This document shows, one piece after another, positions 19,963 to 25,106 of a stretch of DNA of 64,000 nucleotides (positions within the stretch are counted from its first letter, which is position 1; every line of letters starts with the position of its first letter). Source of the DNA: Thiorhodovibrio litoralis (GTDB lineage Bacteria; Pseudomonadota; Gammaproteobacteria; Chromatiales; Chromatiaceae). The stretch is taken from the NCBI RefSeq assembly GCF_033954455.1, contig NZ_CP121473.1, positions 3,458,501-3,522,500 on the forward strand. The letters are read 5' to 3'. The translations under genes were made by a program, and so were the position numbers. Under the pieces are notes generated by a model. It was given only the letters and a program-made list of their open reading frames with translations. It searched no databases and was not told where the DNA came from.

Positions 19963-21027
19963 TTACGCAAGATCAAACCGATCCGCGTTCATTACCTTCG
20001 TCCAGGCGGCGACGAAGTCGCGCACGAACTTCTCCTGATTGTCATCCTGGGCATAGACCTCGGCATAGGCGCGCAGGATGGCATTGGAGCCAAACACCAG
20101 ATCGACCCGCGTCGCCGTCCATTGGACCGCATCGGTCTGGCGATCACGGATCTCGTAGCGGTGATCGCCCGCAAGTTCCCAGCGGTAGGCCATGTCGGTC
20201 AGGTTGACGAAGAAGTCGTTGGTTAAGGCGCCCTCCCGCTCGGTGAAGACGCCATCCTTGGTACCGCCATGATTGGTCCCCAACACCCGCAGCCCGCCGA
20301 CCAGCACGGTCATCTCCGGGGCTGTCAGTCCCATCAACTGGGTGCGGTCGAGCATGAGTTCTTCGGCGCTGACGGCATAGTCCTGTTTCAGCCAGTTGCG
20401 ATAGCCGTCGTGGATGGGTTCGAGCGGCTCAAAGGACTCGGCATCGGTCATCTCCTCGGTGGCATCGCCGCGTCCGGGTGCAAAGGGGACCTTGATCGGG
20501 CAGCCCGCCGCTTGGGCGGCCTGCTCGATGCCAAGATTGCCGGCCAGCACAATGACATCGGCCAGGCTGGCGCCCGCCTCGGCGGCGATGGGTTCCAGCA
20601 CGCCCAGCACCTTGACGAGACGGGCGGGTTCGTTGCCTTCCCAGTCCTTCTGCGGCGCCAGACGAATGCGCGCGCCATTGGCTCCGCCGCGCATGTCGGA
20701 GCCGCGGAACGTTCGGGCACTATCCCAAGCGGTGGCGACCCGCTCGCCAATGCTCAGTCCACTGGCGGCAATTCGGGCCTTGACGGCCTCGACATCATAG
20801 TCGCTGCGCCCCGCCGGGATGGGATCCTGCCAGATCAGGTCTTCCTTGGGCACCCAGGGGCCGAGATAGCGCGTCTTGGGGCCCATGTCGCGATGGGTCA
20901 GCTTGAACCAGGCGCGTGCGAAAACTTCCGAAAGGTACTCGGGGTCTTGGTGGAAGCGCTCGGCGATTTCCCGATAGACCGGGTCCATCTTCATGGCCAT
21001 GTCGGCATCGGTCATGATCGGGTTGTA
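19963..21027 (-). pseudogene. katG: katG 3' part (C-terminal catalase-peroxidase domain)
   Basis: This is the C-terminal half of a bifunctional catalase-peroxidase, separated from its 5' half by a 4.07-kb transposon. The frame enters at TACAACCCGATC (YNPI) next to the element. An internal ATG (21015) gives a 350-residue ORF starting [21 protein letters not shown] and running to NADRFDLA. The C-terminal domain is heme-free but is needed for proper folding in studied KatGs. It could be expressed only from a promoter within the element, so the gene is read as inactivated. No other damage is visible. Confidence 0.92.
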
Positions 21028-21179
21028 TGAGCGTAATCACGATAATTGCGGGACCCATTTCCAAGCCATTTGAAGGACATGGAATGCGTGTGGGATCACG
21101 GGGGCCGTTACTGGCCGACAGCGGGAAGCCGGAATCGTGAACCACGCTTCCCCCCTGAGGGGGGAGAGACGCAGCGGGT

Positions 21180-21989
21180 TCAGTTGCCTCTAGCGCTCTG
21201 GCGAATGGCGCGAGCGAGGGTGTAGCGGGCATAGCGCTCGGCATCGGCTCCGCGACGCGGGGACGCGCGCTCGAGCAAGCGCTGGTAGACCGTGGTCGGT
21301 GCAAGGCCCGCCTCAAGAGCGCCGCAGACCCAGCCCCATTCGCGGGCGGATTCGGACGGATCCCCGGTGGATAAGCGCGCCCGTGGAGCGCAGTTGACGA
21401 CTGGCGGCGGAGCCGGAGCCATCGTTGGCAAGGCCGGAGTTGGATCCCAGACGCGCTCCTGCGGGCTTGGTCGCCGAAGGACATTGACCCACTCCCCGCC
21501 ACGCTTGGCATTCTTCATCCCGGCGAGCCGACCGAGGTGCTCACCGGAGACCGAGCCCGGATCGGCGCCAACGCGCGGGATCAGCCAACGCTGCACATCA
21601 CAGCGCTGCGCCTCATCGAGCGCGCGGGTCAGCCGTAGCCACAGGTGGCAGCCCCCGAGCGTCGAAGTCTGCACCACCAGGGCCGCATAGTGCCGAGCGA
21701 TGCGCTGCGCCATCGGCCGTGCGACATCATCGAGAAACACCATTGGCCAGGGATAGCCGCGGGCTGGACGGATATAAATATCGGCCTGTTGGACATTGCG
21801 CGCTCTGGCCAGCCCCAACGGAAGCTGATCCAAAGAGCGATCATGGAACCACAGCATCGTCGCCTTGGCGGTGCGCACCGCCAAATCGGCACGCACGATG
21901 CCAGCGTCGTGCCATGCCTCAAGCATCACGGCGGTGTGTCTTGCCGCTGTCATGGCCTGGTGCGGGCGCTCAGCGCTCAAGCGGCTCAT
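21180..21989 (-). CDS. RepB-type DNA primase-like protein of the transposon
   Basis: A 269-residue protein resembling the archaeo-eukaryotic primase-like domain of RepB/RepSA replication proteins. The motifs are NVQQADIYIRPARG and PMVFLDDV (acidic pair), VVQTSTLGGCHLWLRL, and GADPGSVSGEHLGRLAGMKN. The C-terminal part is Arg-rich with a helix-rich tail. The ATG overlaps the ATPase stop (TGATG), so it is the last gene of the four-gene unit. A primase beside a transposase and ATPase suggests a role in replicative gap filling or target handling, which is an inference. The family assignment is by motif only. Confidence 0.75.
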   Translation of the reverse strand: MSRLSAERPHQAMTAARHTAVMLEAWHDAGIVRADLAVRTAKATMLWFHDRSLDQLPLGLARARNVQQADIYIRPARGYPWPMVFLDDVARPMAQRIARHYAALVVQTSTLGGCHLWLRLTRALDEAQRCDVQRWLIPRVGADPGSVSGEHLGRLAGMKNAKRGGEWVNVLRRPSPQERVWDPTPALPTMAPAPPPVVNCAPRARLSTGDPSESAREWGWVCGALEAGLAPTTVYQRLLERASPRRGADAERYARYTLARAIRQSARGN

Positions 21990-22840
21990 CAGGCGCCCGC
22001 CCTGGCACTCGGGCGTTGGCGGGCGTTGCCCGCCGCTGAACCAAACACCTCAAGGTAGAGTTGTTCATCGAGCTGCGCGCGTTCGAGCCGAGCAGCCTGC
22101 GCCAGCAATTCTGCCGCCATGGTCGTGAGCACGCGATAATTGCCCAACGCATGCTCAGCGAGCGTCTTCATCAGCCCTGCGCTCATCAGACTCGCATTGC
22201 CGGCACTGTGTTGTAAATGCTCCAGGCAGGCGACCAGCGCCTCGCGACTGGCATACTCCATACTCAGGCGCGTACGGATACGACTGCCCAGCGGCAGCAA
22301 CTCCTCACGGCGCAGCTTGGTCGCCAGGCGGCCATCGCCGGCCAGGATCACGCTCAACAACGTGCGCGAATCGAACTGCATGGAGGTCAGCAGACGCAGC
22401 TCATTGAGCACCGTCGGATGCATCTCCTGCGCCTCGTCGATGAGCAACACCGGGCGCAACAGCGTCGTCTCCAGATGCGCCAGCCAGCGCTCGCGCAGGA
22501 TCTTGAAGCCACCCCAGCGGTTATGGGGCTTGAGGTCAACGGCGAACAGATCGCCCATCTCGCGGTAGAAGTCCGCCACCTTCGAGCTGGGATGCGTGAG
22601 CGCCCCAACGCTGATATCGGGCAGCTGGCGCAGACGCTCATCGAGCAGGCGCAGTACCGCACTCTTGCCGGTACCCGGATCACCTTGAATGAGCGCAAAA
22701 CCGCCTTCGCGGATCAGGCTCTGCTCGATGCGCCAGCAAAACTGCTCCACCGGCGCGCTGCGATGCAGTGCCGCCGTCGGCAGCTCCGGGGAGAACGGAT
22801 TGAACTTCAGTCCATAGAGGGCCAGCAGGGTCTTGTTCAT
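21989..22840 (-). CDS. ExeA/TniB/MuB-like AAA+ ATPase of the transposon
   Basis: A 283-residue ATPase with Walker A GDPGTGKSAVL (about residue 52), Walker B LLIDEAQEM (about 133) and a sensor-like SVILAGD. The start MNKTLLALYGLKFNPFSPELP is typical of ExeA-type transposon ATPases. By analogy with MuB, TnsC and TniB it would select target DNA and activate the transposase. It is coupled to the transposase gene by a 4-bp ATGA overlap and to the primase-like gene by a 1-bp overlap. The start has no separate ribosome site, as expected for coupling. Confidence 0.88.
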   Translation of the reverse strand: MNKTLLALYGLKFNPFSPELPTAALHRSAPVEQFCWRIEQSLIREGGFALIQGDPGTGKSAVLRLLDERLRQLPDISVGALTHPSSKVADFYREMGDLFAVDLKPHNRWGGFKILRERWLAHLETTLLRPVLLIDEAQEMHPTVLNELRLLTSMQFDSRTLLSVILAGDGRLATKLRREELLPLGSRIRTRLSMEYASREALVACLEHLQHSAGNASLMSAGLMKTLAEHALGNYRVLTTMAAELLAQAARLERAQLDEQLYLEVFGSAAGNARQRPSARAGA

Positions 22841-24387: not shown

Positions 24388-24954
24388 CTACAGCGAGCCT
24401 GTCGCTGTCGTGCTCGGGGCGATCAATATCAGCAGTTGCACGACGCGCTCGGACAACGCTTTTGCGCTCAATTTTTCCAGCAGGGATCCTGGCAGGTGCT
24501 CGGTGGCGATCGGCGGCATCAACAGACCAGCCAAGGATCGAAAGCAGCGGGTTTGCACAAACTGCTCACGCCACCAGTGCTGCCACCGCCGCAGGGTTTG
24601 GACGGTGACACCGAGCGTCTTGATCAAGCGCTGGCGACGCGATGCGCTCAGCCCGCAATGCAGGGCGGAAATCAGCACGACGATGACCCCGAGATAGACC
24701 TTGCGGCCCAGAAACCGAACGGAAGGCGGGGTGCTGCGCCGCCGGCACCCGTCCGCGGCACAGCAGAAACTCAGACGGCTCTGGTAGCTCTCATCCAAGA
24801 CGCCACGCACACCTCGGGGCTTACGCGGATAACGGGCGCTGTGCAACGCACCACCGCAGTCACAGCCGCCCGCGCGGACTTCCTCGGCAATCGACTCGTC
24901 GATCCGGGTGAGCAGTTGGTAAAAGTTCGTGTCGGCAAGAAAGGCGTGACACAC
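24388..24954 (-). CDS. DUF6431 zinc-ribbon/HTH protein of the transposon
   Basis: A 188-residue protein, first gene of the element. Cysteines in GGCDCGGALHSARYPRKPRG and FCCAADGCRRRSTP suggest a zinc ribbon. RRQRLIKTLGVTVQTLRRWQHWW resembles a helix-turn-helix, matching what I recall of DUF6431 proteins, which often sit beside transposases. It starts at a GTG with GGAGACAG upstream. A role in end binding or regulation of transposition is plausible, but no function has been established that I know of. Confidence 0.7.
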   Translation of the reverse strand: MCHAFLADTNFYQLLTRIDESIAEEVRAGGCDCGGALHSARYPRKPRGVRGVLDESYQSRLSFCCAADGCRRRSTPPSVRFLGRKVYLGVIVVLISALHCGLSASRRQRLIKTLGVTVQTLRRWQHWWREQFVQTRCFRSLAGLLMPPIATEHLPGSLLEKLSAKALSERVVQLLILIAPSTTATGSL

Positions 24955-25003
24955 TGGGACTGTCTCCTGGTTTTTGGCGAAATTCGGAGACAGCCCTCTC
25001 GGA

Positions 25004-25046
25004 CAACTTGCGTCAAGTTGTTTGAGGGGGTTTTTTGTTTTCCCTC
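25004..25046 (+). terminator. Hairpin with T-run near the transposon end
   Basis: On the plus strand a stem built from CCCTC...CAACTTG, the loop CGT and CAAGTTG...GAGGG is followed by a run of six T, fitting an intrinsic terminator reading toward 25100. The inner CAACTTG/CAAGTTG palindrome (25014-25030) could alternatively be a protein-binding site near the element's end. Confidence 0.5.
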
Positions 25047-25106
25047 ACTGAATTTGCTCAGAATCGCGGCCGATTCCCGCAAATAGTCTGCTCAGGCTCA
25101 GTTGTA

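Follow-up and report, generated by a model that had tools for sequence, protein, structure and literature searches.

Organization of the element

The window analysed here is the whole stretch of 64,000 nucleotides between positions 3,458,501 and 3,522,500 of contig NZ_CP121473.1 of Thiorhodovibrio litoralis, and it contains a transposon that has interrupted the peroxidase gene katG. The element proper (21028-25100, 4,073 bp) is flanked by GTTGTA on both sides and carries four minus-strand genes: orf1, an rve transposase, an AAA+ ATPase and, at the fourth position, a primase. As argued below, it is a primase variant of the Tn6049 family of transposons. The features of the locus, in window coordinates, are as follows.

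21022-21027, no strand: target duplication, first copy (GTTGTA)
21028-21052, no strand: terminal inverted repeat at the primase end, matching the opposite end at 18 of 25 positions
21149-21165, minus strand: GC-rich hairpin lying 3' to the primase gene, the comparison with other loci being by eye and folding
21180-21989, minus strand: primase of RepB' type (archaeo-eukaryotic primase (AEP) superfamily), 269 amino acids, with D87, D88, H115, D143 and R154 present
21989-22840, minus strand: AAA+ ATPase (ExeA/TniB/MuB-like), 283 amino acids, with Walker A GDPGTGKS and Walker B LLIDEAQ
22837-24294, minus strand: rve (DDE) transposase, 485 amino acids, with D188, D253 and E289 and 35 residues between the last two
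24388-24954, minus strand: orf1, 188 amino acids, cysteine-rich, conserved across the family, with a GTG start
25076-25100, no strand: terminal inverted repeat at the orf1 end
25101-25106, no strand: target duplication, second copy (GTTGTA)
19963-21015, minus strand: 3' part of the interrupted katG (peroxidase)
25098-26348, minus strand: 5' part of the interrupted katG (peroxidase)

The ends read TGAGC...GCGGG, and katG becomes a single open frame of 769 codons once the flanks are joined with one duplication kept. A preliminary description of this DNA had proposed a complete element with these terminal repeats, duplications and genes, which is borne out, its interval 21022-25106 including both duplications. 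The short overlaps that it reported downstream of orf1 are likewise present (4 bp between the transposase and ATPase genes, 1 bp between the ATPase and primase genes, orf1 lying 93 bp away from the transposase gene), and its primase-like protein is a primase by sequence; its DUF6431 label for the orf1 product has to be dropped, as Pfam gives no such match at E <= 1. The same product has a weak helix-turn-helix match (HTH_23, E 0.026), its richness in cysteine being judged by eye.

Amplification in the host chromosome

In the chromosome of the host, a single contig of 5.47 Mb, the transposase has 27 near-identical copies and one distant match, and the primase likewise has 27 copies. Alignment with the window element runs end to end for 26 of the 27; these complete copies are 98.2-100% identical to it, and the terminal 8 bases at the primase end are the same in all 26 readable copies. 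Target duplications measure 6 bp in 15 of them, 7 bp in three, 5 bp in two, 4 bp in three and 3 bp or less in three, a duplication of 6-7 bp thus being present in 18/26. The element has moved, and recently judging by the identity of its copies. We suspect recombination or deletion in the three copies with no convincing target duplication (L042, L043 and L045; 1, 3 and 0 bp). The 27th copy (L044) is split by another copy (L035), which was inserted near the ATPase/primase junction with a CCAGGG duplication at about 3.687-3.695 Mb of the host genome; immunity to self-insertion is therefore not absolute.

A primase in place of a small protein

The element belongs beside Tn6049 of Cupriavidus metallidurans, whose transposase the window transposase matches at 60%. 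It has orf1, an rve transposase and an AAA+ ATPase in that order on one strand, TGAG/TGTG terminal repeats and a short target duplication; the small fourth protein of Tn6049-like elements is missing and a primase stands in its place, and for this reason we class the element as a variant. Tn6049 itself is described as a transposon of 3.5 kb, of which CH34 has 12 copies (PMC2864759).

Relatives were sought by a scan of genome_contigs with one genome per species (84,980 species), from which the best 80 of 240 confirmed relatives were taken. Orf1, transposase and AAA+ ATPase were found together in 76 of these 80 loci, the exceptions being L064, L076 and L109, which lack orf1 and where the transposase match lies at the start of the locus, and L134, where a transposase relative (100-1419, 61%) has no orf1 or ATPase match nearby. 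Together with other searches, the scan yielded a survey set of 106 loci whose transposase reaches 45% identity or more. Leaving aside five without a complete ATPase found (L057, L072, L083 and L138, cut short, and L134, with no ATPase match), this makes 101 loci, or 93 that are distinct by transposase DNA; the survey sequences are related by descent, so that P values overstate. The ends of the relatives resemble TGAGnnTGnTCAC...GATGG, and a 6-bp duplication together with ends matching at no fewer than 16 of 26 positions occurs in L052, L114, L116, L121, L127, L130, L160 and L204, the other relatives showing duplications of 4, 5 or 7 bp or none in a loose search. A third genome of the host genus (G394) has three copies (L167, L169, L171) of a more distant element (33%).

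At the fourth position of the 101 loci we found a small protein in 80, a helicase in four, the primase in two, both from the congener G441, and none of these in 15. Outside G441, not one of 99 Tn6049-like loci found via the transposase has the primase (tblastn, E <= 0.01). The primase-free relatives include Tn6049 (L019) and the nearest relative, L063, whose transposase and ATPase match those of the element at 82% and 86%. The DNA of L063 can be aligned up to the end of the ATPase gene and then over the last 38 bp; the interval contains a gene of 59 codons but no primase. At its other end, L063 is truncated by the border of its contig. Our transposase tree (69 sequences, quick method) places the primase-bearing elements in one clade (SH-aLRT 99) with L063 as its sister, both inside a set of 15 sequences of which the other 13 members carry the small protein. 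We conclude that the primase replaced the small protein, on the branch leading to the host family. The view of the preliminary description that the primase is an obligate third partner of transposase and ATPase has accordingly to be given up, homologous elements regularly lacking it. That it knew of no experimental description of the gene set agrees with the literature searched, from which subscription journals were mostly outside coverage, and the same literature yielded no description of a primase, a helicase or a protein with a tip like that of the single-stranded DNA-binding protein (SSB) in such transposons. The element is a primase variant of a known transposon family, within a wider pattern that we did not find described.

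Other frames were met at the same position. Two Accumulibacter loci (L080 and L090) are elements of about 3.86 kb with 6-bp duplications and a different, 88-amino-acid frame after the ATPase, and a Binatia bin (L142, 3640-3996) has a protein of 118 amino acids with no Pfam match, whose gene overlaps the ATPase stop by 4 bp.

Properties and distribution of the primase

A phmmer search with the single sequence finds RSF1010 RepB' (3h25, E 2.1e-9; 3h20, E 4.9e-9) and covers the catalytic domain, and the Pfam family RepB_primase is reached at 22.6 bits, just below its cut-off of 24.3; this domain and the helical C-terminal one together (3h20 residues 1-291, E 1.7e-40) are matched only with a four-row profile that includes a plasmid RepB. 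The acidic residues of motifs I and III (D87, D88 and D143) are kept, and these three and R154 are invariant among four aligned primase sequences. Motif II has His115, not Gln. The RepB' family is described with Gln in this motif (PMC5862659), and it is because of His115 that we use the name RepB'-type; membership of a neighbouring AEP subfamily, of His type, is equally likely. Structure prediction from the single sequence was too poor to use (pLDDT 47), and the primase fold therefore rests on sequence and profile matches.

The primase is under purifying selection. The 26 copies differ by six synonymous changes and one non-synonymous change in the primase (P 0.0016, the copies not being independent), and the comparison with G441 gives a ratio of non-synonymous to synonymous substitution rates (dN/dS) of 0.22. 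The dS value of 0.61 is near the 0.65-0.82 of the other element genes, from which it follows that the primase travelled with the element. G441 has two copies (L160 and L161) at different sites, with the same four-gene order and a primase 80% identical to that of the window, one of them with a CCTGAT duplication; both have a transposase disrupted by the same deletion and frame change. A primase-directed search also found a decayed copy in G1246, from a second genus of the host family, with partial orf1 and transposase, no ATPase match, and a primase (70%) that has one in-frame TGA and has lost D143.

One may ask whether the primase is a passenger, that is, a captured gene that plays no part in transposition and is kept for some other benefit or is merely recent. 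Its absence from the 99 other loci found via the transposase would fit, as would the G441 copies, which hold the primase open beside a broken transposase. However, the gene is coupled to the ATPase gene and substitutes for a conserved gene of the family instead of being an addition; the dN/dS and dS values given above and the recurrence of other replication proteins at the same position speak in the same direction. We therefore hold this to be one of the less likely readings, and a rather improbable one.

The idea that this primase is common in transposons was considered and rejected: it has matches in 3/369, 2/96, 5/398 and 3/195 genomes (overlapping samples, with G000 in each), and within these samples it stands beside a transposase only in G000, in G441 and, as a relic, in G1246, no transposase match being found at the primase loci of G098, G107, G476, G558 and G622. 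The nearest primase found outside transposons (L163 in G476, 39-43%) adjoins a D5/DUF5906 helicase, an integrase and a coupling protein in an island-like stretch. Matches also occur in 19 plasmid records, where they are annotated as replication primases or mobilization proteins. In viral contigs patterns were matched, but no relative of the primase or of the transposase was confirmed. The hairpin 3' of the primase gene has a similar counterpart in G441 (L160, after 7096) and in the G1246 relic (L255) and was not seen in L063. It is a possible priming site or terminator, and its reading as an ssi site is suggestive only.

The small protein and the RepA-like helicase

The small protein has 60-85 amino acids in 74 of its 80 loci. 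The first search, which gave these 80 loci, used seeds chosen partly by their ending; in a repeat with the last 18 residues hidden, the core was matched in 78 loci. From a non-redundant set of 62 small proteins (similarity ratio 0.85), 54 end in F and 42 in PF, and 47 combine a final F with a minimum of two acidic residues within the last six positions. By comparison, only 8 of 114 other frames taken likewise end in F and 2 in PF, these controls including other proteins at the fourth position, some of them F-ending, and none of the 62 partner ATPases ends in F. The linker ahead of the tail varies in length, and an acidic tail closing with PF at the very C-terminus gives the small protein its likeness to the tip of SSB. 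The C-terminal hexapeptide of SSB, DDDIPF, is described as making essential interactions with partners in a paper on the binding of DnaG to SSB (PMC5872125). Judging from its sequence, the tip of the small protein would likewise recruit SSB-binding partners. A model of the L063 small protein (16 rows) has a pLDDT of 81 and one long helix at residues 16-36, the tail being less certain.

Such endings extend beyond the profile. The 71-amino-acid protein of Tn6049 ends in ADNDF and falls below the profile threshold, yet is alike by eye. More distant elements have similar-looking small proteins ending in FDDPMPF (G394) or IDDPF, and proteins that occupy the fourth position but bear no evident resemblance to the small family end in NDDLPF (L204, 107 amino acids) or in RDLPF and PDLPF (118 amino acids).

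The four loci with a helicase are L075, L209, L128 and L207, the first two coming from the same phylum and being 85% alike, and L128 being cut by the end of its contig. The helicases are AAA_25-like, Pfam having been scanned with those of L075 and L128, and that of L075 matches RSF1010 RepA (1g8y, E 1.4e-8). Among 222 genomes of the phylum of L128 the helicase was found at 14 places in nine genomes, two of these places being already known. Ten further contexts were examined, L227 being a place not looked at in context. In nine of the ten the helicase follows a more distant transposase/ATPase pair, one of IS21 type, and an ATPase match lies just upstream in eight (L229-L232 and L234-L237, the helicase of L237 being interrupted). 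The IS21-type locus (L233, 1917-5152) has istA-istB above the NCBIfam cut-offs, with a RepA-like helicase gene close behind them; the remaining one, L238, is a fragment with neither ATPase nor transposase. None of 72,556 plasmid records contains the helicase at E 1e-5.

As RepB' and RepA are plasmid replication proteins, the primase or the helicase could replicate the element after its excision, as a circle or as a single strand, in a plasmid-like phase. The company in which the L163 primase is found and the keeping of the hairpin in three lineages would be in line with this. Against it, no survey locus has primase and helicase together, four genes leave no space for an initiator gene (no search for iterons or circle junctions was made), and transposition explains the 27 chromosomal copies, most of which have duplications. 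Autonomous replication is accordingly also among the less likely readings, and we consider it the least probable of those discussed here.

A proposed role for the fourth gene in DNA synthesis

Three dissimilar kinds of protein, linked by their sequences to priming, to unwinding or to contacts with SSB, alternate at one translationally coupled position, and for this reason we think that the position serves DNA synthesis after strand transfer. The fourth position would be an exchangeable interface with replication, and the primase would help the synthesis that follows strand transfer, a reading to which we give a probability of roughly 0.5. The helicase and the protein with an SSB-like tip at the same position lend it indirect support. 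In our picture the small helical protein would use its tip to draw host proteins of replication or repair that bind SSB, such as DnaG or PriA, to the intermediate of strand transfer; in some other lineages the RepA-like helicase would take its place, and in the present element the primase may lay primers on the single strands exposed after strand transfer, which would help to replicate or repair the element.

The main rival moves the action to the choice of the target: the fourth-position protein would direct the transpososome to single-stranded DNA or replication forks, in the manner of TnsE in Tn7, and would have no part in synthesis after insertion. An SSB-like tip, a helicase and a primase are all associated with forks, and of the 27 copies, 21 are found in the half of the chromosome nearest the terminus (P 0.006, although copies in clusters are not independent; origin set by eye from a dnaA-like frame at base 1, terminus at about 2.75 Mb from the skew of 40 sampled stretches). 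However, the orientation of the insertions relative to replication is without bias (14/27 co-directional), and selection against insertions close to the origin would likewise lead to an enrichment near the terminus. We regard target choice as unlikely, if less so than the passenger and plasmid-like readings.

Several points weigh against a role of the fourth gene in synthesis after strand transfer. A common position of primase, helicase and tip protein does not prove a common role, and the function of the tip is read from a short motif. Among the 62 small proteins are eight without a final F, some of them broken or overlong, and the small protein of a distant element (the second element of L090) ends in R. 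Fifteen of the 101 loci match neither the small family nor the helicase nor the primase; seven of these have an F-ending frame (in six places: L019, L062 = L214, L115, L204, L206 and L208), and the other eight show nothing fitting (L080, L089, L090, L100, L110, L124, L142 and L205). The G441 copies keep the primase frame open despite their broken transposase, no ssi site has been demonstrated for the element, and we know of no replication intermediate for the Tn6049-like family.

The pattern may be a wider one. With somewhat less confidence than for the element itself, we propose tentatively that DDE transposons with AAA+ partners (Tn6049-like, distant IS481-like and IS21-like) carry a dedicated, exchangeable gene for coupling to the replisome, which would be either an SSB-tip mimic recruiting host priming or restart proteins or a RepA-like helicase or RepB'-like primase of their own, the element thereby controlling the replication of its strand-transfer intermediate. 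The hand-over from DDE strand transfer to replication has been worked out mainly for phage Mu. A family with one gene position that holds an SSB-tip-like protein, a replicative helicase or a primase would make this hand-over directly testable in an element of 3-4 kb, and the natural exchanges at this position are available for comparison.

Comparison with known systems

The closest known system is Tn6049, which shares with the element the order of orf1, transposase (60%) and ATPase (60%), related ends (TGTGC versus TGAGC) and its presence in multiple copies; the counterpart of the ATPase is, we take it, the published gspA ATPase gene. It differs in its length of 3.5 kb and in its fourth gene, which encodes 71 amino acids and not a primase. 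The duplication published for it is of 4 bp for one plasmid copy (PMC2864759, PMC4739549), and the Tn6049 copy read here has one of 5 bp.

With Tn5053/Tn402, Tn7 and Mu the element has in common a DDE transposase with an AAA+ partner ATPase. The genes of Tn5053/Tn402 are tniA, tniB, tniQ and a resolvase, and its duplication is of 5 bp. The duplication of the present element is mostly of 6 bp and its fourth gene is a primase, and none of its four genes has a TniQ or resolvase family match at E <= 1. The rve transposase also recalls IS21 and IS481, the best NCBIfam match being IS481 with 136 of 224 bits, below the cut-off, and the IS21-type locus L233 carries a RepA-like helicase after istB; to our knowledge, an ATPase is not part of simple IS481 elements, nor a primase of IS21. 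SCCmec is not a DDE transposon. It resembles the present element in being a mobile element with its own priming and helicase proteins, encoded in a primase-helicase operon (PMC7581432). Finally, RSF1010 RepB' (PDB 3H20, 3H25) and RepA (1G8Y) are homologues of the primase and the helicase found at the fourth position, with the difference that here each of the two occurs alone, in a transposon.

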